DNA of 27,570 nt from a virus. Where the stretch lies: IMG/VR virus record IMGVR_UViG_3300005588_000082, positions 1 through 27,570 of that record; one strand, given 5' to 3'. Of the stretch, positions 1 through 26,095 are shown in pieces (position 1 is the stretch's first letter; each line of letters begins with the position of its first letter). The position numbers and the translations under genes were made by a program. The notes beneath the pieces are model-generated. The model was given only the letters and a program-made list of their open reading frames with translations. It did no database searches and was not told the DNA's origin.

Positions 1-3000
1 CCTAGCACACCAAATGTTTCTAGTGGAAGCCTTATAAACCTTTCATCTTGTTGTCTTTCAATAGCATCAGGTTGCACCCTGTCTGATTCAAATAATTTAT
101 TTATTCCAAACTCAAGAGTTTTTATCATAGGACTGTATGCAGCAAATAAGTTTGGAGCTATATCTGCAAACTGAGGAGGTCTACCACTCTTTCCTTCTGG
201 AATAATAGTGTACTGTATGGCATCCCTATACTTGTCGTAATCTCCATCTCTAAGGAATTGACCATACGCTTCATTAAGATTTTCTAAACCAAGGTTTATA
301 ATACTCTTGGTTGCATTACCAAAGTCTCTACCAAACAGTAAAGATGTAAAGGCTGACACCATTGCTTGCCCTAACATTTTATCAACAGACTTCATGCCTT
401 GTTCGTCATCATCTTCAAACTGAAAGTTTGAGAAATCAAAGTCTTCATCATCATCATCTTCAGTTAAGTCTTTAATAGCTTCTGCTACAAGTGTACCCAT
501 AAATGTATATGCTATCATACGAGTTGTTACACCTGCAAGTAAAGCAGCACCCTGTCTTTTGTTGACTTGTCCGTTACCTACGGCAGCCATTATTCCTGTT
601 CTAGCAGTTATGTATTCAAAGATTAAAAACCTAGTCATAAATCCATTAAAAGCATTAAACCCTCTTAATAACATTCCTTGATTTGGTTTTACAGTTCCTT
701 TAAGGATACCCATAAAAGCATTATCGGTAGCTCCCATAGCTACTGATCTGTTGTCTGCTAGTGTCTTGGCATCATTCAATTCAGTAGCATACTTATTCAT
801 GTAAGCTTCGTCATTGGCTGCAATCTTATCAAAGTCTGGAGACTTACCAGTAAGTTGTTTGAATCTATTTTCAAATGCACCAAACCACATCGGTTGCATT
901 ACTAACTTATCAGGTGCAGATATCAATGAATCAGCAGTGAACTCAACACCTTTAATCCATCTTTGACCAGTCTTGTTCCATAACTGTAGTATTGTATTTT
1001 TAACTCTACCTTTAGCTCTACTTGCAGTAACGCCTGCTGCTTGATTTAAAATTCCTGTATCCACAAATTTACCAGACAATCCTGTTGAGAACACCCTGTT
1101 TGTTTGTGTACTATTAAGGTTATTCATAACCTCTTTACCTTCAGGACTTGCTAAAAGTTTTCTATTTTTTATTCCTGAGATTATACCTTTTGGGTCTATA
1201 TAAATTCCTGCAAGTATGTTGCTTAAAAGTTCATATGAAGCTCTAGGAATTCCTGCAAGTATTGCTCTGTATCCTTGCTTTTGTATATAGTCTACTGCTT
1301 GATCTGCAATGGTGTTTTGAGTTAATGCATTGCTTAATAGGTTTTCTATTGATTCTATAGAAGCATCACGAATGGCATTAAACTTTCTTCTATTACTTAC
1401 AGACATGTTTCCATCTTCATCGGATAGATTTTTTTCTATCTGATTAAGTGTTCTTCTAGCAGTTCTAATTGGCTCTGTTAAATTAAAGTCCATTAAAGTA
1501 TACTTAGCACCTCTTTGAACAGACGCATACACATCAAAGTTTAAAGGCGATACCTTACCTGTTCTTTCAATTAAACTCTTAGCCTTTGTGGATGGCTTTA
1601 AGTATTTATTAAACATATCAGATATTTGAGATGTCTCCGTTTCAATAATATCTGCTTTAGAAACATCAGGTATAACACTCAAGTGAGTATAATTTTTAAG
1701 AGGTGTAATCTTGTTTCCTCTAATTATATTAGCAGTATAAACTGCCTTGTCAGTCATAGACTTATTTATTTCCTCTAGTGTTCTTATTGAATTTCTTTCT
1801 GCAACATTAAAGGATTCATATAGTTGGTCAATATCAAAAGGCTTTGTTCCGTTAGCCGTATATTTATCAAGTATCTCCTGAAGCATTTTAGCATCAGTCT
1901 CGGTGTAACTTGTTGTCTCTGTCTTTATTCTTTTGATAGTGGCTTTCAAAAAGTCTTCAACACTATTCACTTGATTACTATCTGGGTTACTTAAAAACTC
2001 TTGCTGAATAAGATAAGACATCTGCTTATACTTAGACATAATAACCTTATTTGGGTTACGACCAAAAGATTTAAACACTGCCTGCTCTACTTTTTCTATT
2101 TTAGCCTGCACCTCTTTTATAGCCTTAGTGTATTTAGCTGAAGCTTCAGCAGACCTTTTAAATATAGAATTAAATATATCTTTAGTTTTAAAGTCTCCAA
2201 AGACTTGGTCAATATAAAAAGTAGGGTTACGTCTTATTAATTCTAAAGTAGGAGACTTGCCTGTTCTTCCAATTTTAGATTTAAGGTTTGCATAAATCTT
2301 ACTTAGTGGCAATAACTTACTTCTCTTTATTGCGTTAGTACCTACCTTAGCATCATTGATAGCATTCATTTTGCCTACCATTATTTGAGCATAGTGTGGC
2401 AGGTATCCGTTGTTTATGTTATCAATTACTTTGAATAAATTTTTCAGGTCATCCAAAGACAAGTCATTAATTGCATCAGTCTTTAAAAGTTTCTTAAACC
2501 TTTTAGCTAAGTCTCTTTCTAGCCTGCTTGGGAAAACCGATGGGTCAACTTCTTTTGTTGCCTTTACATCCTTAATAACCTCTTGTCTTTCTGCTTCAAT
2601 TTCTGCTTTCTTTTCTTGTGTTTCTGCTTCAATTTCTGCTTCCGTTTTAGGTGTTGCAATCTCAGATTTAATCTGAGACTTGTATTTCTTCATCACCTCA
2701 TACTCACGTTCATCTATAACCTCATTGTCAAGCATTTCTTTTATAGTTGCAGCATAGTCCACTCCATTGTCACCCATAACCTTTTCTGCATTTTTATACC
2801 TGTCTGCAAGCTCAATAGCCATAGAATACTCCTCGTCTAACTGCTGAAGAACATCCTCAGTTAGTTGTATAACTTGTTCCATTGGAGGTAGTGACAAAAC
2901 ACTTTCTCTCTTTCCAAATATGTTAATCAACTCCATGTATTGATCTAACACAGAGTCAGGTATTAGAGATGGTTTTACAGAGAACAGTCTCTGTAGTTGG

Positions 3001-6000
3001 TCTACCAATCCTTCAGCGATACCTATCTTTGTGGACACATTCTTTCTAGCCTTACCTTTCTTGGCATTCGCTATCATCATTTTATTTCCGTAATCAGCGT
3101 CATTGAATACCTTTGTCATATACTCCACAAACCTTTCTACAGTGATTGGGTTGTTAAAGTCATCAGGTACTTTGTTTATTACAGACACCATCTTACTTGG
3201 CGTAATCTTTCCTTCCTTTGTAAGCTCTCTTAGTGAGGCAACAATATCTTTCTTGACATCCTTGGCTCTTTTTTTCTGGTCGTTAAGAGCCTTAAATATT
3301 TTTCGTTGTTCGTCTGGAGTTATATTTAAAACATTCTTAATCTCTGTGATTGCCTTCTTTATAGATGACGTTCTCTTTCTTGTTGGTTTCTTACTAGGCT
3401 TTTTCTTTCCACTAGGCTTCTGCTTACGAATAGAAGGTGCGTCTGGGTTAAAAGTTTTATTAGTTCCATCGGCTAACTTAGATTGATTAGATTCAAAAGT
3501 AACATAAGAGTCTGTAAATTTTTGTTCACCTGTAAACAAATCAAAATCAGAATGAGTTTTAGAAGAGTTTACTGTAGATACAAACCCCCCTGCATCTAAC
3601 AACTCCTTGATTCTATTGTTATCCTGAGAGGTTAACTCTGTGCCTTCATTATTTTCAATAACATACACATTACCTTGATTAGAACTGAATGTTATAAAAG
3701 GTCTAGATTCACTTTCACTTTGTAAAACTACATCCCCAACAAACACATTACCATTATTTCTTACATAAATTTTTGAAGATTGTTCGTCAATTATATAACT
3801 CATTTTAGAGTCTTGAGAATCAAAAGCATTTTCATAGACCAACCCATCATACCCCTCGTTTTCTAACACACTTATTAAAGCATCACTTTGTTTGGTGACT
3901 AAAGTATTGGAATCATAATATTCATCTTCTGTTAGGTTTTCTTCTATATCATAAAATAAATTTTCTAAAGTTTCAAATTGTTCATCATTTATGATGTCAT
4001 TCTTTATCAATTGTTGTATTAAAATAGGTGGGTCAAACCTATGGCTATCTTCAACACGAAGAGGATTTCTTATATTTAAAAAAACATTTATTTCTCTTTC
4101 AAATTGTTCACCTTTGGCTATAGATAAATCCTCCTTTATAGATGGTTCTCCAAAATGAAAACCTGTTTCTTTGTACTTAAATACATCAAAATAATTATTT
4201 GTAAAATGTGATACTGGTAATGGTTCTCCATTCTCATCGACAACCTTGCTTGAGTTTTCAGGGTCAGTCTCCCAATTACCAAACCAATTCTTAAATGCAG
4301 GTGTCCGAACTAATTTATATTGTTCAGGAGTTAAATTGCTTGGATTTCCATTTGGAGCTAAATCAATTTGCTTACGAGACTGAGGTGCGTCTTTTATTAC
4401 TTTTTCTTGTTTGGTTCTAGGGTTAAACATTATTGGAAACCCTTCAGGATTTTTACCAAATGAAAGGTAATACCCTGTAGGAGTACCTCTTCGTCTTCCT
4501 TCTGTAATATATCTTGTTTCTACCCTAAGACCAAAACGTCTAGCAGCTCTTTGTAGTTCTCCAAGTGGCGTAGTTCTATATGGAATGTATCCATTCTTTT
4601 TCATATAAAATGTATCAGCCATCTTGTTAAGACGCTTCATATCAATCTGCTTACGTGATTGTGGAGCATCAGAAATATCTGCAGGAATTATAGATGTTTT
4701 CTGCTTACGAGACTGAGGTGCGTCTTTTTTTATTTCAGCTTTTACAGTAGCCACTTTAGGTCCTGATCCTGCACTACTTGATACGTTAGACGACTTAAAG
4801 TCTTTAGTATTTTCTCTTGTAGAAACTACTGCTCCTGACTTGTTAAATTTTGTATAAGAATCGGTAACCTCAGTGCTTTGATAAAAATTTGTAGGTTGAA
4901 CAATAGTTTTTATTTTGGCTTTTACAGTCCATGCAAAAGATGGGTGATAATCAGCGTCTCCCTTTTTTGGTCTTGAAGGAGTTTCAAAAGTAGTATTATC
5001 AAATTCAACAAGACCTATAATATCAAATTTTTGACTTCCTAAATTCATAGGGTCTTCTAATAACTCAGCAAATTGAATTTTATTTTTAACACCTAAAGCA
5101 GCTTGAACTTTTTTGTTTGAAGCTATTTTATCGTTTAATATTTTTCTTAAATCTGGTGAATAATTATTATCAATATCTAAAAGCTCTACTAATCTTTTAG
5201 GATTTTCTATAAAATCATTTAAGTTGTTTGTGTTTTTTAATTTAGGAAGGTTACTTCCTTCTTTTGATTGTGCTTTTTTATATTTTTTATTAAATATATT
5301 TAATGCATTTTGACCATTCTTACTTTTTAAACCATCATTAAAACTTTCAATCAACTCTTGATTAGTTAGTATATTATTATCTAATAATTTTTCAGTTAAC
5401 TGCTCAAATATATTTTGTTGAAACTGCCAAGAACCTTCTTTAGTTCCTACGTGTGGAGCAAATAAATTTGCATTTCCATCTATAGCATTTTTAATAAATC
5501 CTTCAGCTTGACCTTGAGTGTTAAAAGCAGCAACATTAGAAACTTCTCCTAATTTAGTTCCTGTTTTTTCCATCATATCAGCAACATAATTTTTACCTCC
5601 ATACAAGTCAAGTACAATACCAGCACCAATATTAGTTGGTCCAGCATTTGTAAAGTCATACATATTAGTTACAAAATTTTGCCCTCTATAATCTTGCAAG
5701 TCTTTTTGAATTATATTTTTTGCATAATCTCTAGTGTCATCTTTTATGTTTGGAGCTTTTTGTTTTCTGTCTTTAAAAGTAAAAGTAAAAGTACCTACTT
5801 GACCAGAACCTCCTTGCTCTTCAACTTCGAGAATTTCAACATCCTGCTCTGTAATTTCTTGTCCTGCTTTTACCTTTGCAGAAACTACATTTAGCAAGTC
5901 AATAACCTCAGCATCAGTAAACTTCTTAACTCCTAGTATCTTAGCTAGTTTGTTAACCCATCTCTGTACTAAGTTCTGAGTAGGTGCATCCATTTTTGGC

Positions 6001-9000
6001 AACTCTGATGCTAGTAATCCAAACAACTCGGCAATACTCTCCTCACTCTCAAGTGCAGACTCATATTTATCAGAATGTTTCTTTAGTTTCTCTAGTAACT
6101 CTGGCGATGCAGTTTTTTTAACTGCCTTAAACATCCTGTCAGTGATGGCTTTAGCCTGCTTATTAGTGATTCCATTTCTTAGTAACAACGCATGGAACAC
6201 CTCGTGTGCAACAGTGTTATCCTGTACCTTTGTTGCGTTTATGTGGATAGTCTTTGTTCTAGGATTATACTCCCCATTTGAAGACTTCTTTATCGTCTCT
6301 TCTCCTGTAGCTTTACGATAAGATGAGTCATCACTATGCAAAACTATTTTAATGTCCTTATCGAGCTTCTCTAAAGCTCTCCTAGCATTATCTATTTGCT
6401 TCTCTACTTTAGTAATTTTCTTTTCTACTTTAGTGACTTGCTTTCTAGGTTTCTGAGTAATCTTTTCTAAAGCCTTCTTAGCCTTTCTAATCTCTGATTT
6501 TTTTTGTTTTAAATCTTCTCTATAAGATTCAATGACACCATCCCTTTCATCTTTTAAATCCTCTTGTTCAGCTACCTTTTCTTCTATCGCTTCAATCTTT
6601 TGTTCCTTTGATAGCTTTTTATCTTTTCTTATTTTAGCCTTCTCTTCCTTAATTCTAGCAACCTCTTCTTTGTAGTTATCTTGTTCAATGGTTATCTCCT
6701 CTAAAATGGTTTCAGCACTCATCTGATCATTCTCAATCTCATTCTCAAGCCTTGATATTTCTGGGTCAGTCTGAGGCGTGGCAGGAGTTTTTAATTTGAA
6801 TCGTTTCGTGACATCTTTAACAAAGTCATTAAATTGATTATCAGTCATAGCAATCAAGTCTTCTACCTTCACTGATATTCCTCCCATTATAACTTCTCCG
6901 TTGTCTTCTCTAAAGTTTGGACTAAGTTCTACAACTTGATTTACTCTTTCATTTCCTTCAGGTGTCACCTCAACTTGTTCTTCTACTTTTACTTCTGCTT
7001 TAGGAGTAGGAGCAGGAGCAGGAGCAGGAGCAGGAGTAGGAGCAGGAGCAGGAGTAACTATCATATCAACCCCTACCTTTGTTCCATCACCAAAGGTTTC
7101 TGCATACGCAGGAGCATTTGCAATGATATCTTTAGCCATTGTTTTTGTACCTACCTCAATTATTTGTCCTGTAACTTTATTGACAACCCACCATTTATCA
7201 CTTGTCTTATTTCCTTCTTCATCAAATAAAGCCTGTTCTTGTCCTTTACGATTATCTAGTATTTCAAAATCTTTAGACCATGTTTTTTTATTGGTCTTGT
7301 TCATTTCGTAAACCACTTCATCATCAACCTCTACCTCAGCTTCAGGCGTTACATCCAAGCCTGCTGCTTTACGCTGCCTGTCAGACATTCTAGATTCTAA
7401 CTTAGGATTTATTACAGTCTTAATATCTACCTCTTCAGTGCTTTTAACATCTCCTTTTGTACTAACACTAACATATTCTTCGTTTGTGAGTGTGTTATCT
7501 TTTGAAATTGTTTCCCTAAAAAAAACAGCACCTTCTTCATCTGAAATTTGCACCTTCCTGCTACCATCAAGTTGAGTGGTTACTGTAGCAATGTTTGTTT
7601 CCCCATTACCATCTTCATAGGTAATATTTTGTTGCGATACAGGTACTTGAGAGTCGTTATATCTTTCTTCTTTTACCTCTGTCTCTTCTTTAGAAGTAAC
7701 CTCTACCTCTGTATCCGTTTCTGTTTGCTGGTCTTTATTAAACAACTCAACTGCTCGTTCTAAATTTTGTTGCTCAGTTATTTCAAACTCCTCATCACCC
7801 TTTGCCTCAGACTCTTCTACTAACTCTTTACTAGCCTGCTCTATATATTTTAATTGCTCACTCTGTTCAAGTTCTCTAAAGGCATCTACCTCAGTGTTAA
7901 CCTCAGCTTCTAGCTGATTTTCTTGTAAATCTTTTATTTTAGATTTAAGTATACTAGCCTTTTCCTTAGCAACCTCAGTCTTGTTTCCTTCTAATTTACT
8001 AAGCTCTAGTTGTAGCTTTGTTATTTCAGCTAAAGTCTCAGGGTTAATATCAGGATTAGCCTCTAGTATTAATCTCTCAGTATTTAATTGTAATATTCTA
8101 TCAGAAAGTTTTTCTGCTCTACCTTCGTAATCGTTGTCAATCTTTATTTTTGTAGACTGTAGTTGGTCTAAAGTCATGGTCTCTATAAGGTTGTCTATAG
8201 TCTCTACGTCTACCTTCTTTCCGTTTACCCTATACTTTGGCTTCGAAAACCTTGCAGATATAACATCCTTTACCCCACCTGGTGCTTCAGCAATACCCTC
8301 TAATGCAATCTCAGAGATATCCATCTCTTGACCAATCACACCTCTAGCAGTAGCTTCACCTAAAGACCCACCTACAGATTCAATTCCTGACGCAGCTAAA
8401 ACAGATTTAATTTTTGTGCCTTTAGTTGCACCTTTACCAGCTTTACTAAGAATTTTACCTGCAACCTTACCACCTAACCTACCTGTAAACGCATCAATTA
8501 CACCAATGGTTAGACCTCTAGCTAATGCTCTGTTTCGTAGACTCGTATATATTTTATCATCATTTAATGCCTCTCTAATTTTTTCAGGAGTAAGCTCTCC
8601 CTCAATCTCCTCTTGTAGTAACTCAGAGAATGTAGCACCCATTTCAAGAACTGATCCTGCTGCTGCAAATGCGTATGGAAGCGTTGCTGCTGCACCTGCT
8701 ATTGCTCCTGGTACTGCTCCAACACCACCTGCTAAAGCACCTGAACCTGCTCCTACTGCTGCACCTGAACCTATTACTGAACCTGCAGCTACTAAGGAAT
8801 CTTTATTAGTTCCCATAGATGTTATAGAACTAATTATAACTTCAGGAATAACTTGTAATCCTGACTTAGCTAACCCCATAACAACCCCCATAAAACCTTT
8901 TCCATTTTCTTCGTAGGTCTTTTGGTAAGCCATCATCTCATCAGATGGACCTAGTTTCTGTGCCTCTTTATTGGCTTCAATAAAACTGTATATATCTTCA

Positions 9001-9434
9001 TCGGTAGCGTTTGCACCTCGTAGTAATATGTCTGATGCATCTTCAGCAACCTGACCTTGATAGTAACCTGTAGCAACACTACGAGCCATGTCATCTACAA
9101 AGTCTCCTAGTCCTATTCTTGTTACTGCATCAAAGCCTCTTAGTATGTCACCAAAAGTTCCTTCAAAAAAGTCCTGTTCAGTCTGTGGTTGTATAGCCGA
9201 AGAAATGTTTTCCGTAACCAATTCCCCATTTTGATCTTGAGCAATAAAACCTGATTCGTCTTTTTTTTTTTGAGAAAATGCAGCTTCAAATTCTTGTAAA
9301 TCGGCAAAAGCACCTGGCTTTATTATAGAAAACAAAGTAGCATTATCAACTTGGTTTGCAAAATCTTGAAACTCTTCAAAAGATGAAAAAGCTCCATCAA
9401 CAGTTAATCCAAATAAATCTTCAATTTCAAACAT
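1..9434 (-). CDS. Giant polyvalent virion protein with zincin protease and ADP-ribosyltransferase-like domains (3' end outside window)
   Basis: One uninterrupted frame of at least 3144 codons runs from ATG at 9434 to the window edge without a stop. Approximate residues seen: 165-290 Gly/Ala-rich hydrophobic stretch; 405-545 coiled coil rich in Glu/Lys/Leu; 794-811 Pro-Ala linker; 885-1020 second, highly charged coiled coil; 1025-1165 metalloprotease with HEVFH at 1077-1081 and a later Glu at 1136; 1226-1570 unknown domain; 1597-1681 small basic domain; 1690-1997 ADP-ribosyltransferase-like domain; about 2360 onward a long helical region with hydrophobic helices near 2930-2990 and an Asp/Glu cluster near 2990-3012. 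This architecture fits the phage polyvalent proteins, which are packaged and delivered into the host with the genome. It starts two bases after the stop of the preceding helical virion gene, implying coupled expression. Function of the whole is inferred; the protein continues beyond the window. Confidence 0.85.
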   Translation of the reverse strand, partial: MFEIEDLFGLTVDGAFSSFEEFQDFANQVDNATLFSIIKPGAFADLQEFEAAFSQKKKDESGFIAQDQNGELVTENISSAIQPQTEQDFFEGTFGDILRGFDAVTRIGLGDFVDDMARSVATGYYQGQVAEDASDILLRGANATDEDIYSFIEANKEAQKLGPSDEMMAYQKTYEENGKGFMGVVMGLAKSGLQVIPEVIISSITSMGTNKDSLVAAGSVIGSGAAVGAGSGALAGGVGAVPGAIAGAAATLPYAFAAAGSVLEMGATFSELLQEEIEGELTPEKIREALNDDKIYTSLRNRALARGLTIGVIDAFTGRLGGKVAGKILSKAGKGATKGTKIKSVLAASGIESVGGSLGEATARGVIGQEMDISEIALEGIAEAPGGVKDVISARFSKPKYRVNGKKVDVETIDNLIETMTLDQLQSTKIKIDNDYEGRAEKLSDRILQLNTERLILEANPDINPETLAEITKLQLELSKLEGNKTEVAKEKASILKSKIKDLQENQLEAEVNTEVDAFRELEQSEQLKYIEQASKELVEESEAKGDEEFEITEQQNLERAVELFNKDQQTETDTEVEVTSKEETEVKEERYNDSQVPVSQQNITYEDGNGETNIATVTTQLDGSRKVQISDEEGAVFFRETISKDNTLTNEEYVSVSTKGDVKSTEEVDIKTVINPKLESRMSDRQRKAAGLDVTPEAEVEVDDEVVYEMNKTNKKTWSKDFEILDNRKGQEQALFDEEGNKTSDKWWVVNKVTGQIIEVGTKTMAKDIIANAPAYAETFGDGTKVGVDMIVTPAPAPTPAPAPAPAPTPKAEVKVEEQVEVTPEGNERVNQVVELSPNFREDNGEVIMGGISVKVEDLIAMTDNQFNDFVKDVTKRFKLKTPATPQTDPEISRLENEIENDQMSAETILEEITIEQDNYKEEVARIKEEKAKIRKDKKLSKEQKIEAIEEKVAEQEDLKDERDGVIESYREDLKQKKSEIRKAKKALEKITQKPRKQVTKVEKKITKVEKQIDNARRALEKLDKDIKIVLHSDDSSYRKATGEETIKKSSNGEYNPRTKTIHINATKVQDNTVAHEVFHALLLRNGITNKQAKAITDRMFKAVKKTASPELLEKLKKHSDKYESALESEESIAELFGLLASELPKMDAPTQNLVQRWVNKLAKILGVKKFTDAEVIDLLNVVSAKVKAGQEITEQDVEILEVEEQGGSGQVGTFTFTFKDRKQKAPNIKDDTRDYAKNIIQKDLQDYRGQNFVTNMYDFTNAGPTNIGAGIVLDLYGGKNYVADMMEKTGTKLGEVSNVAAFNTQGQAEGFIKNAIDGNANLFAPHVGTKEGSWQFQQNIFEQLTEKLLDNNILTNQELIESFNDGLKSKNGQNALNIFNKKYKKAQSKEGSNLPKLKNTNNLNDFIENPKRLVELLDIDNNYSPDLRKILNDKIASNKKVQAALGVKNKIQFAELLEDPMNLGSQKFDIIGLVEFDNTTFETPSRPKKGDADYHPSFAWTVKAKIKTIVQPTNFYQSTEVTDSYTKFNKSGAVVSTRENTKDFKSSNVSSSAGSGPKVATVKAEIKKDAPQSRKQKTSIIPADISDAPQSRKQIDMKRLNKMADTFYMKKNGYIPYRTTPLGELQRAARRFGLRVETRYITEGRRRGTPTGYYLSFGKNPEGFPIMFNPRTKQEKVIKDAPQSRKQIDLAPNGNPSNLTPEQYKLVRTPAFKNWFGNWETDPENSSKVVDENGEPLPVSHFTNNYFDVFKYKETGFHFGEPSIKEDLSIAKGEQFEREINVFLNIRNPLRVEDSHRFDPPILIQQLIKNDIINDEQFETLENLFYDIEENLTEDEYYDSNTLVTKQSDALISVLENEGYDGLVYENAFDSQDSKMSYIIDEQSSKIYVRNNGNVFVGDVVLQSESESRPFITFSSNQGNVYVIENNEGTELTSQDNNRIKELLDAGGFVSTVNSSKTHSDFDLFTGEQKFTDSYVTFESNQSKLADGTNKTFNPDAPSIRKQKPSGKKKPSKKPTRKRTSSIKKAITEIKNVLNITPDEQRKIFKALNDQKKRAKDVKKDIVASLRELTKEGKITPSKMVSVINKVPDDFNNPITVERFVEYMTKVFNDADYGNKMMIANAKKGKARKNVSTKIGIAEGLVDQLQRLFSVKPSLIPDSVLDQYMELINIFGKRESVLSLPPMEQVIQLTEDVLQQLDEEYSMAIELADRYKNAEKVMGDNGVDYAATIKEMLDNEVIDEREYEVMKKYKSQIKSEIATPKTEAEIEAETQEKKAEIEAERQEVIKDVKATKEVDPSVFPSRLERDLAKRFKKLLKTDAINDLSLDDLKNLFKVIDNINNGYLPHYAQIMVGKMNAINDAKVGTNAIKRSKLLPLSKIYANLKSKIGRTGKSPTLELIRRNPTFYIDQVFGDFKTKDIFNSIFKRSAEASAKYTKAIKEVQAKIEKVEQAVFKSFGRNPNKVIMSKYKQMSYLIQQEFLSNPDSNQVNSVEDFLKATIKRIKTETTSYTETDAKMLQEILDKYTANGTKPFDIDQLYESFNVAERNSIRTLEEINKSMTDKAVYTANIIRGNKITPLKNYTHLSVIPDVSKADIIETETSQISDMFNKYLKPSTKAKSLIERTGKVSPLNFDVYASVQRGAKYTLMDFNLTEPIRTARRTLNQIEKNLSDEDGNMSVSNRRKFNAIRDASIESIENLLSNALTQNTIADQAVDYIQKQGYRAILAGIPRASYELLSNILAGIYIDPKGIISGIKNRKLLASPEGKEVMNNLNSTQTNRVFSTGLSGKFVDTGILNQAAGVTASRAKGRVKNTILQLWNKTGQRWIKGVEFTADSLISAPDKLVMQPMWFGAFENRFKQLTGKSPDFDKIAANDEAYMNKYATELNDAKTLADNRSVAMGATDNAFMGILKGTVKPNQGMLLRGFNAFNGFMTRFLIFEYITARTGIMAAVGNGQVNKRQGAALLAGVTTRMIAYTFMGTLVAEAIKDLTEDDDDEDFDFSNFQFEDDDEQGMKSVDKMLGQAMVSAFTSLLFGRDFGNATKSIINLGLENLNEAYGQFLRDGDYDKYRDAIQYTIIPEGKSGRPPQFADIAPNLFAAYSPMIKTLEFGINKLFESDRVQPDAIERQQDERFIRLPLETFGVL
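3420..3443 (-). repeat. Domain-boundary motif copy, DAPSIRKQ
   Basis: Residues 1998-2005 read DAPSIRKQ, the most divergent of the four full copies. It closes the ADP-ribosyltransferase-like domain and opens a Lys/Pro/Ser-rich basic linker (PSGKKKPSKKPTRKR). Confidence 0.8.
3444..4367 (-). other. ADP-ribosyltransferase-like domain inside the giant protein
   Basis: Residues about 1690-1997 follow the pattern of the phage polyvalent ART-like family: FKNWFGNW near 1717, SKVVDENGEPLPVSHFTN with His1743 at the position of the usual HGT, GFHFGEP with His1760, NVFLNIRNPLRVED, GYDGLVYEN near 1863, and the closing SYVTFESNQSKLADG followed by TFNPDAPSIRKQ. The last parts match the recalled family ending SYVVFDPNQIK...FDPNNPDIRFS. 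The usual HGT is replaced by HFT, and about 97 residues (1880-1975) are inserted before the final strand. Activity is not certain because the catalytic acidic residue cannot be assigned by eye. Confidence 0.6.
4368..4391 (-). repeat. Domain-boundary motif copy, DAPQSRKQ
   Basis: Residues 1682-1689 read DAPQSRKQ. It separates the small basic domain from the ADP-ribosyltransferase-like domain. The DNA is nearly identical to the copy at 4701-4724, including the flanking bases. Confidence 0.85.
4392..4646 (-). other. Small basic domain isolated between two DAPQSRKQ motifs
   Basis: Residues about 1597-1681 are an 85-residue module, cut off on both sides by DAPQSRKQ copies. It is rich in Arg, Tyr and Gly, with a central helix (LGELQRAARRFGLRVETRY), an Arg cluster (EGRRRG) and a beta hairpin ending FGKNPEGFPIMFNP. 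The size and basic charge would suit a nucleic-acid-binding or small effector domain, but nothing identifies it. I report it as unrecognised. Confidence 0.5.
4647..4670 (-). repeat. Domain-boundary motif copy, DAPQSRKQ
   Basis: Residues 1589-1596 read DAPQSRKQ, followed by Ile-Asp as in the copy at 1682. The codons differ from the other copies (GAT GCT CCA CAA TCA), so the peptide, not the DNA, is what is conserved. Confidence 0.85.
4701..4724 (-). repeat. Domain-boundary motif copy, DAPQSRKQ
   Basis: Residues 1571-1578 read DAPQSRKQ at the end of a Ser-rich linker. Only ten residues separate it from the next copy, so the two form a close pair between the unknown domain and the small basic domain. 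Confidence 0.85.
4725..5759 (-). other. Domain of unknown function between two RKQ motifs
   Basis: Residues about 1226-1570 of the giant protein form a unit bounded by RKQ at 1223-1225 and DAPQSRKQ at 1571-1578. It begins with a basic helix, then a Gly-rich loop reading GAGIVLDLYGGKNYV, then Asn/Leu-rich helices, and ends in a beta-rich part around ADYHPSFAWTVKAKI followed by a Ser-rich linker. It resembles, from memory, a domain of unknown function found in other phage polyvalent proteins, but I cannot name it. No catalytic motif is obvious. Confidence 0.5.
5940..6362 (-). other. Zincin-type metalloprotease domain inside the giant protein
   Basis: Residues about 1025-1165 contain VAHEVFHALLL, a classic HEXXH zinc site (His1077, Glu1078, His1081), preceded by a beta-strand-like segment ending TIHINATKV. 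About 50 residues later comes EESIAELF, whose Glu1132/Glu1136 pair fits the ExxxE/D third-ligand helix of gluzincin-like enzymes. All residues expected for zinc binding and catalysis are present. Such domains are common in phage polyvalent proteins, where a role in self-processing or in cutting host proteins has been suggested. Substrate is unknown. Confidence 0.75.
7004..7055 (-). repeat. Pro-Ala hexanucleotide repeat linker
   Basis: A GCTCCT-type hexamer (minus strand) repeats with occasional ACTCCT, encoding a Pro-Ala/Pro-Thr run at residues about 794-811. This is a stiff extended linker between the N-terminal half and the coiled-coil/protease half of the giant protein. Tandem repeats of this type vary in copy number between relatives. 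Confidence 0.85.
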
Positions 9435-25024: not shown

Positions 25025-26095
25025 TTATTTTCTTTTTATACTCTTAATTTTAAGTCCTCTACCACTATCTGTGCTTAAAGACTTAAATTGTGTTCCTCCC
25101 TTGCTTGTCACTTCAGGTGTTCTGCGTTCTGACATATTTATATTTTTTGTCTTACGCATTACGTCTTCTGTGGCATTAGCTTTACCTTGTTCGTAAAAAA
25201 ACTTAGCAAACTTTTCAGGATTCTGTGCAATTGCTACACTCCTATGAAAACCTTTAGAATCTTTTAAAAGACCACTATCATCTAAATACTTGGTTGCCCA
25301 ACCACCTGGATTTAATGCATTTTTTTTTAAATCTTCTAAACTACCTGGAGAAAATGTTATTGTTTCTTCACCTATATTAAACTCAAAACCTTTGAATTCA
25401 GGTGTAAATACTTCTAACGTCTTTGAGTCGTAAAACTCTTTCTTTCTAGTAGTCTCTTCTTCATGAGACTTCGCATCTGCAATGTATTGCTTATAGCCTT
25501 CCATTTCTTCATCAGAGACATTTGAAGTCTGCATTCCCCTTGACTCAAGTGGTTGCTTATACTTCTCTTGCATTTCTTTAAAGTAATCTTTTGCCTTAGC
25601 AATAGCTTTTTTCTTCTTTAACTTAATTTTCTTTATGTCACCCTCATCATCTAAGTCTTCATCAAAAGAATAGTCATCCATTAAGGTTTCTATATCCTCT
25701 TCATCAAGACCATCTTCCGTAACACGTAAATAATCTCTAAGTAAAGAATCAGGATTGGTATCATCAAAATCTTTTTGTAATTCTACATAGTCTTTGATTC
25801 CTCTCCCTGTATCTTTTTTATATTTAAAGTAAGCAGCGACATCTTCAGGTAATTCTTCCTGAGTTTCTCTCTCACTCATTAATTCATCAAATGAATTAAT
25901 TTCTTTATTATATCTTTTACCAATATATGAAAGAACGTCTTTCTCGTTTAATTCAGCAGGTTCTTCAGCTTTTGGCTCTTCAGCTTTAGGTTGGTCTTCT
26001 TGAAGACCTTCTTCATGCTTGTCTAAAAGCTCTTGTTCTACCTGTTGTGTAGATTTTTCTTCCCCTACTGTTACTTCTTTTACTTTGAATTCCAT
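25025..26095 (-). CDS. Scaffold-like acidic protein, 356 aa
   Basis: The gene sits between portal and capsid, where scaffold proteins normally lie. The protein is strongly acidic and helical: a Glu/Gln-rich start, two KAEEP repeats near 37-46, VAAYFKYKKDTGRGIKDYVE, LLRDYLRVTEDGLDEEDIET, an Asp/Glu cluster near 142-152, then a Lys-rich helix (KKIKLKKKKAIAKAKDYF) and a basic C-terminus (LKIKSIKRK). This layout matches scaffold-type proteins I recall in Bacteroidota phages, including the DTGR and LLREYL-like segments. The charged C-terminal tail could contact the capsid shell. No protease motif is visible. A TATATTTG box lies 20 bases before the ATG, so transcription could start here independently of the portal. 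Confidence 0.65.
   Translation of the reverse strand: MEFKVKEVTVGEEKSTQQVEQELLDKHEEGLQEDQPKAEEPKAEEPAELNEKDVLSYIGKRYNKEINSFDELMSERETQEELPEDVAAYFKYKKDTGRGIKDYVELQKDFDDTNPDSLLRDYLRVTEDGLDEEDIETLMDDYSFDEDLDDEGDIKKIKLKKKKAIAKAKDYFKEMQEKYKQPLESRGMQTSNVSDEEMEGYKQYIADAKSHEEETTRKKEFYDSKTLEVFTPEFKGFEFNIGEETITFSPGSLEDLKKNALNPGGWATKYLDDSGLLKDSKGFHRSVAIAQNPEKFAKFFYEQGKANATEDVMRKTKNINMSERRTPEVTSKGGTQFKSLSTDSGRGLKIKSIKRK

Follow-up and report, generated by a model that had tools for sequence, protein, structure and literature searches.

According to the available text of Iyer et al. (2017), polyvalent proteins were proposed to be autoprocessed by a zincin that they carry (PMC5512222). Among the cases given there, the zincin-bearing polyvalent protein DdrB of phage P1 is processed before packaging. 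The plasmid zincin proteins ArdC of pSa and TraC1 of RP4 are transferred as full-length proteins, which counts against cutting (PMC5512222). Autoprocessing as a proposal has thus been known since 2017; the part that appears to be new here, as read from sequence, is a joint code that is readable and that switches between lineages. Joint tags of this type are not described in the open-access literature searched, and the available portions of PMC7824862 and PMC9503650 name no such tag. The reading favored below, which we regard as probable, is that the chain's own zincin recognizes the tag and cuts there, and that the protein would process itself.

The window, which is the whole stretch of DNA analyzed, comprises 27,570 bases of a tailed-phage record. 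Its minus strand encodes a giant polyvalent protein with an ATG at 9434, which in the ORF listing is open at the contig end and has 3144 aa within the window. The kin of the window are tailed phages: a structural protein is 67%, 53%, and 47% identical to those of ctfjg026, Maribacter phage Panino, and Flavobacterium Elemovirus, respectively. In a close relative, L004, the domain designated X is 100% identical to that of the window and the entire ORF is present (3272 codons from stop to stop). The giant-protein gene shares a gene block with portal and virion structural protein genes, in an order similar to that of ctfjg026 and Elemovirus, and the Elemovirus homologue (elemoF, L029) bears the GenBank label 'structural protein'. 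As in other polyvalent proteins, several effector and processing domains are found in one chain, here a zincin with HExxH and an ART-PolyVal domain (below cut-off in the window), and the gene lies beside head and packaging genes. The giant protein is probably injected by the phage into its marine bacterial host. A 356-aa protein, encoded at 25025-26095 between the portal and capsid-like genes, has a weak match to a crAss cargo protein (E 0.0092, below cut-off). After an N-terminal region, the modules of the giant protein follow in this order:

3..9434, minus strand: giant polyvalent protein ORF, 3144 aa, open at contig end; residues 2376-3143 match phrog_32588 (E 2.4e-101)
6438..6446, minus strand: RKQ directly ahead of the zincin, residues 997-999; same RKQ in L004 and L005
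5862..6431, minus strand: zincin metallopeptidase domain, residues 1002-1191; HEVFH at 1077-1081 (6206-6192), Glu 1132 invariant; pLDDT 48-88
5751..5771, minus strand: joint tag 1, DRKQKAP, residues 1222-1228, at the zincin/domain X joint; from sequence and relatives
4725..5759, minus strand: conserved domain X, residues 1226-1570; a profile scan finds 53 loci, mean pLDDT of the model 84.8
4701..4724, minus strand: joint tag 2, DAPQSRKQ, residues 1571-1578; from sequence and structure models
4647..4670, minus strand: joint tag 3, DAPQSRKQ, residues 1589-1596; from sequence, codons differ
4392..4646, minus strand: small module, residues 1597-1681; relatives match its profile
4368..4391, minus strand: joint tag 4, DAPQSRKQ, residues 1682-1689; from sequence
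3444..4367, minus strand: ADP-ribosyltransferase (ART)-like module, residues 1690-1997; ART-PolyVal PF18760 at 1733-1896 (E 1.8e-4, 22.7 bits, below the cut-off of 31.2)
3420..3443, minus strand: joint tag 5, DAPSIRKQ, residues 1998-2005, where the ART tail ends; from sequence
3..3419, minus strand: C-terminal region, residues 2006-3144; from the ORF, with the phrog_32588 match within

The sequence-only reading had described DAPQSRKQ or DAPSIRKQ at residues 1571, 1589, 1682, and 1998 and DRKQKAP at 1222-1228, at domain borders downstream of a HEXXH protease in the same chain. The ORF translation contains all of these residues; the tags are indeed located between the zincin, X, the small module, the ART-like module, and the C-terminal region; and the protease motif is HEVFH. 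As a unit, eight letters proved too long: R-K-Q alone is common to all five joint copies, with DAPQS as the window's local flank, and a sixth RKQ is present at 997, just N-terminal of the zincin. The NPDIRFS ending of ART-like domains does not hold up as a separate element either, since the ART tail (..PD.P.IR) continues directly into the tag itself (NPDAPSIRKQ in the window, DPDSPDIRKQ in L079). RKQ is absent from all 12 of the other window ORFs checked. The presence of an 8-mer in three copies far exceeds what is expected from shuffling: when the L004 protein was shuffled 50 times, the most frequent 4-mer made of four different letters occurred twice in 14 shuffles, three times in 35, and four times in one. 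As a widespread motif, exact DAPQSRKQ was rejected; a degenerate DNA pattern (with serine as TCN) hits two IMG/VR stretches only, both of them close relatives. Thus, the tag is to be read as lineage-specific. A search of related phages, as the sequence-only reading had proposed, finds tags at the equivalent X joints.

A search with domain X yielded 19 loci and a profile built from it yielded 53, of which 50 were analyzed after removal of two near-duplicates (L033 and L036) and a truncated locus (L082); these include 28 representatives with <90% identity in X. In the representatives, both X joints carry a short [R/K]-x-[Q/S] tag that matches within a protein and varies across lineages; the tags of the group include RKQ, REQ, RQQ, KQQ, KAQ, KSQ, KIK, and others. 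When read by eye, the tripeptides before and after X are identical in 15 of the 28, one position off in nine, two positions off in three (L049, L059, and L072), and without a counterpart in one (L061, which has no matching first tag). The 13 pairs that are not identical, L061 among them, are points against cutting by the zincin. RKQ/RKQ is found in the window, L052, L057, and L079; REQ/REQ in L040, L041, L044, L045, and L050; RQQ/RQQ in L063; KQQ/KQQ in L042 and L080; RQR/RQR in L039; KIK/KIK in L073 and L076; KSQ/KAQ in L051; and KSS/KSQ in L074.

Further joint copies accompany these pairs, with EK[AS]Q present seven times in L051, SKS[SQ] seven times in L074, REQ four times from X onward in L044, and R[RQ]Q six times in L066, where the copies at 936 and 2263 are perhaps off joints. 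Recognizable domains lie between such tags. ART-PolyVal is above cut-off downstream of X in L048, L079 (2031-2240, between tags 1946 and 2248), and L037 (1865-1981, between tags 1700 and 2002). A methyltransferase, also above cut-off, occupies about 1582-1677 of L054, between tags 1548 and 1759. LPD23 is above cut-off in L044 and L072; in L044 it lies at about 1649-1675 and DUF3293 at about 1997-2065, with tags at 1604, 1966, and 2132. A GNAT match in L074 (about 1789-1860, below cut-off) falls between tags 1726 and 1902. The L074 protein also has a 20-residue repeat (LGNLQSIGG...) that is present 11 times within residues 2420-2620.

In five contigs, the tag is nearly confined to the giant protein. 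Counts inside versus outside that protein, over ORFs of at least 60 codons and, for G001 and G010, over the first 60,000 bases only, are 6 and 0 for RKQ in G001; 7 and 1 for EK[AS]Q in G004; 3 and 0 for RKQK in G006 (RKQ once more); 2 and 0 for K[IV]KF in G010; and 3 and 0 for KQQI in G011 (KQQ twice more). These counts bear on whether the tags are cut by some other protease, either a phage head-maturation enzyme or one of the host, rather than by the embedded zincin. Cutting after short tripeptides is known for the head-maturation proteases of other phages; in the available text on SPN3US, gp245 recognizes A-x-E at 14 sites in nine substrates (PMC10052503). Concerted change of the tags within a protein would likewise be expected if the protease acted in trans. 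Given that the tag is hardly found beyond the giant protein in the five contigs, and given the comparison with virion proteins below, we consider this explanation unlikely. By the same counts, the tag in these contigs is not a site shared by several head proteins, unlike in the prohead-protease substrate sets of T4 gp21 or SPN3US gp245.

Agreement between the two X joints was also scored with no tag assignment, as the best four-letter match between the 28 residues before X and the 28 after it. The score for own pairs is 17.04, compared with 13.51 (sd 0.48) for permuted pairs, and none of 20,000 permutations is as high (n=28). When permutation is restricted to clades linked at ≥65% identity, the permuted score is 14.49 (sd 0.50), with none of 20,000 as high here either. 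Four control window pairs shifted by 60 or 150 residues are not significant (2150, 1074, 2082, and 4376 of 5000 permutations). The first tag fits a protein's own after-X tag better than that of its nearest relative in 20 of the 28 cases, equally well in one, and worse in seven. Some of the best matches in the score are not tags (e.g., in L048, L049, L066, and L071), which adds noise to the test. A recurrent site at the joints that matches within the protein is thus present, as would be expected for a self-processing polyprotein.

The codons of the tags distinguish selection on the peptide from the shuffling of DNA. In the window, the RKQ of the first tag is encoded as AGA-AAA-CAA and that of the other tags as CGT-AAG-CAG or CAA. 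Relative to copy 1571, copy 1589 differs at five of eight codons, which bears out the earlier observation that one copy uses different codons, and copy 1682 differs at one of eight. Over 22 proteins, 82 of 160 equal residues in the tag before X and the tags after it use the same codon, compared with 80.9 expected; among downstream tags, 132 of 203 codons are identical, compared with 102.3 expected. Over all tag pairs in a set of 25 proteins, the corresponding values are 232 of 388 and 195.6. (The expectation is derived from each gene's codon usage, and the tag patterns in both sets were assigned by eye.) Codon agreement across X is therefore at chance level, indicating selection on the tag peptide, while the excess sharing among downstream tags indicates that modules there are also shuffled as DNA.

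These values weigh upon the idea, raised in the sequence-only reading, that the tags are simply recombination joints, i.e., short shared DNA whose peptide has no use. The downstream codon sharing fits such joints, as does the 34-nt DNA repeat (94% identity) that contains copies 1571 and 1682. In L037, an ART cassette sits between two GREQ copies with identical codons where L035 and L006 have a single copy, and in L039, L050, and L052 every codon of the tag before X is the same as in the tag after it. Across X, however, the 22 proteins agree as peptides with codons at expectation, several proteins have AGA in the first tag where the tags that follow X have CGT or CGC, and the two joints match despite at least 13 tag changes among 20 phages (see below). 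Across the 22 proteins as a whole, the match between the first tag and the others is one of peptide sequence only, and recombination alone fails to explain this codon-independent match across X. As the whole explanation, we judge recombination to be very improbable, although swapping at downstream joints stands.

In 26 of the 28 representatives, HExxH lies no more than 350 residues before X. The exceptions are L061 and L080; in L080, HExxH is about 490 residues before X and the tags still match, so absence of a zincin near X says little. All 27 aligned zincin rows, which were selected by HExxH, share a downstream Glu, and the invariance of HExxH itself in these rows is partly a product of that selection. 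The embedded protease is accordingly predicted to have intact catalytic residues (HExxH and the downstream Glu). Second HExxH motifs are present farther along in L044 (1748), L063 (1544), L069 (1719), and L072 (1523), with an LPD23 match preceding the motif in L044 and L072.

Partial Mantel tests suggest that the tag is coupled to the embedded zincin. With X distance held fixed, tag distance correlates with zincin distance for both the after-X tags (r 0.373, p 0.003) and the before-X tags (r 0.409, p 0.001), while with the zincin fixed the correlation with X is r -0.08 and -0.13 (n=26 throughout; L061 and L080, with no near zincin, are omitted, and a further run, also positive, omits L048 as well, n=25). 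Without the KIK pair, the values are r 0.276, p 0.012 after X and r 0.333, p 0.004 before X; within R-type tags alone the link is not significant (p 0.10 and 0.087, n=18). The link persists when the fixed distance is that of a capsid-like protein (p 0.005 and 0.001, n=20) or of the 356-aa virion-region protein (p 0.014 and 0.001, n=19), and these two proteins have no positive link of their own to tag distance. (The capsid control covers 20 of the 26, missing L035, L042, L045, L059, L076, and L079; the 356-aa control also misses L039; and one control row, L040, contains unknown letters.) Such tests are prone to false positives, and the tags were assigned by eye. That tag distances track the zincin rather than the capsid-like or 356-aa protein, the only two compared, argues against cutting by another protease.

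The minimum numbers of tag changes on the zincin, X, and capsid-protein trees of 20 phages are 13, 13, and 13 for the tag after X and 14, 15, and 14 for the tag before X. Switches of the tag have thus been very frequent, no fewer than 13 in these phages, and the tree counts do not favor the zincin over X or the capsid protein. Column-wise association with the tag, uncorrected for relatedness, has a mean z of 0.52, 0.76, and 0.73 for the zincin versus 0.04, 0.27, and 0.29 for X. We regard the zincin as the likely reader of the tag.

In a structure model of residues 1002-2010, X is mostly at pLDDT 80-95 and the zincin is mostly ordered. The tag copies at 1571, 1589, 1682, and 1998 have pLDDT of about 27-33. 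The low value at 1571 is telling because X, which lies ahead of it, is well modeled; those at 1589, 1682, and 1998 are weak evidence because the model is also poor for the small module (33-63) and the ART-like part (27-76). Tag 1222 falls within a coil modeled at a pLDDT of about 83 directly before X, and such a confidently modeled coil counts against cutting by the zincin. When X is modeled by itself, confidence is low at construct residues 1-21, 352-355, and 370-381; tag 1222 begins at construct residue 21 and tag 1571 at 370, so both start at the edges of the low-confidence termini.

For the 10 residues that precede tag 1222, pLDDT is 79 in the zincin-containing construct and 40 where X is modeled without it. 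This difference, a hint only since the alignments of the two models differ, would also fit tags that are never cut and instead act in binding or docking, whether they help to load cargo, tether domains to the zincin or another partner, or order the unfolding at ejection. Retention of HExxH (close before X in 26 of 28) and of the invariant Glu suits cutting instead, as does the separation of whole modules by the tags, and we consider docking without cutting most unlikely.

A Pfam scan of 12 members of domain X gave no confident match (the best, in two members, has E 0.0075), and Foldseek gave none at E 0.001 or better. In a second-look fold search, the 12 best rows are YTH domains with Z 4.8-5.9, too weak to trust (the best has Z 5.9, rmsd 3.8, and 139 aligned), and the 13th row (Z 4.6) is what we take to be an ASCH-like protein. 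YTH domains, which like ASCH domains have a PUA-like fold, bind modified bases. The fold search with the zincin ranks a nicking endonuclease, which is unrelated, first (Z 6.9, 63 aligned), ahead of peptidases at Z 5.9 and less, among them a weak match to PPEP-3 (Z 5.9, rmsd 4.2, 141 aligned).

The small module, of about 70 residues in relatives, is bordered on both sides by matching tags in six of 14 phages (L042, L054, L074, L051, L057, and L031): GRQQ/GRQQ in two, SKSQ/SKSQ, EKAQ/EKAQ, RKQK/RKQK, and, in L031, SRKQ/SRKQ. For all 14 modules, none of 20,000 permutations reaches the observed agreement. The seeds of the module profile are those same six (with L030 standing for its near relative L031), chosen because they lie between tags. 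For the eight non-seed modules, 111 of 20,000 permutations reach the observed agreement, and only L034 and L077 (GREQ/GRQQ) score through tags. The module was consequently dropped as a second independent test, with clear agreement in the self-picked seeds only and little in the eight others.

Tags of a similar kind are seen in some other polyvalent proteins. The elemoF protein has six copies of R-x-Q in which the middle letter is free; those at 1449, 1683 (RFQ), 2079 (RQQ), and 2302 (RMQ) fall at four consecutive joints, with borders drawn by eye, and those at 2223 and 2518 are off joints. Elemovirus isolates show no module variation, as 68 of 68 records are ≥99% identical over the stretch. 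A second peptide block, DA[VI]Q[KE]..S.EVDVQ, recurs N-terminal of the zincin in elemoF (1087 and 1219) and is also found in L048, L049, L044, and L039; QEDAVQKQ copies in elemoF flank a stretch of ART-like appearance. Seven gut crAss-like and other ART polyvalent proteins (two in part) have no clear repeated joint tag, with the exception of that of Bacteroides phage BF1-TP2 (L100). One crAss-like polyvalent protein, gp53 of cr115_1 (L107), has an in-frame stop under table 11 at about residue 847, perhaps a reassigned stop codon.

In BF1-TP2, RFRE at 1548, 1754, and 2480 and RFRS at 2259 lie at borders, drawn by eye, of the ART domain and a zincin of a second type, which carries HEVVGHH. RFRE is the most over-represented 4-mer of the protein (E 0.0096), and RFR[ESF] peptides are also found near domain borders in L108-L111. 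A census of this second zincin family in gut Bacteroidales comprises at least 105 loci, one of its searches contributing the best 80 of 130; 93 were parsed, and 44 representatives have both flanks. Among the second-family matches listed, an [FY]R-type peptide, a pattern chosen after inspection of the data, follows the zincin in 24 of 44 and precedes it in 11 of 44, versus an overall rate of about 0.08 per 80 residues. Among those matches, covariation between the flanks is absent (3191 of 20,000 permutations, n=44), a point against cutting at joint tags. The switching tag code is firm for the domain-X group only.

Cutting by the zincin in the same chain would proceed as follows. Once the giant protein has folded, either inside the capsid or after entry into the new host, every [R/K]-x-[Q/S] tag would be cleaved by the zincin. 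The products would be the free zincin, X, the small module, the ART-like effector, and the C-terminal part. Between lineages, the letters of the tag would drift, and all tags of one protein would change together because a single protease reads all of its joints. An incoming recombined module would have to bring or acquire the resident tag. The processing site proposed in the sequence-only reading gains from the matching, lineage-own tags at the X joints of homologues and from their covariation with the zincin, while cleavage, its timing, and the scissile bond (perhaps next to Q) are what we infer from them.

More tentatively, and with some doubt on our part, each lineage may have a private protease-site code in which zincin and cut sites switch together, placing a compatibility lock on effector exchange. 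If so, a module would work only with the resident tag, and the DNA of the tag would provide swap points for modules; it would also mean that a protease and several of its sites have repeatedly changed specificity together. A tag that can be read from sequence would predict the exact fragments of the giant protein and, if the tags are cut, would supply cut points for delimiting effector modules in injected phage proteins.

Among known systems, the polyproteins of eukaryotic RNA viruses, a comparison found in the available text of PMC5512222, likewise appear to combine an embedded protease with recurring sites between functional units. The proteins are unrelated and the peptidases are of other types, making the analogy an operational one. 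The polyvalent proteins of Iyer et al. are closer: as portrayed in the same text (PMC5512222), they too are giant multidomain phage proteins in a virion-gene context with zincin and ART modules, and LPD23 is present in the relatives studied here. Unlike in that text (PMC5512222), which gives neither a cut-site motif nor a joint tag and has 'cleavage site' once, in the reference list, a lineage-specific tag marks the joints here. Head maturation in SPN3US, from what the available text relates, also employs short, tripeptide-type sites in many uses (PMC10052503). There, a separate protease, gp245, strips propeptides from nine head substrates (PMC10052503); here, the tag is nearly limited to one protein that has its own protease, and it lies between modules.
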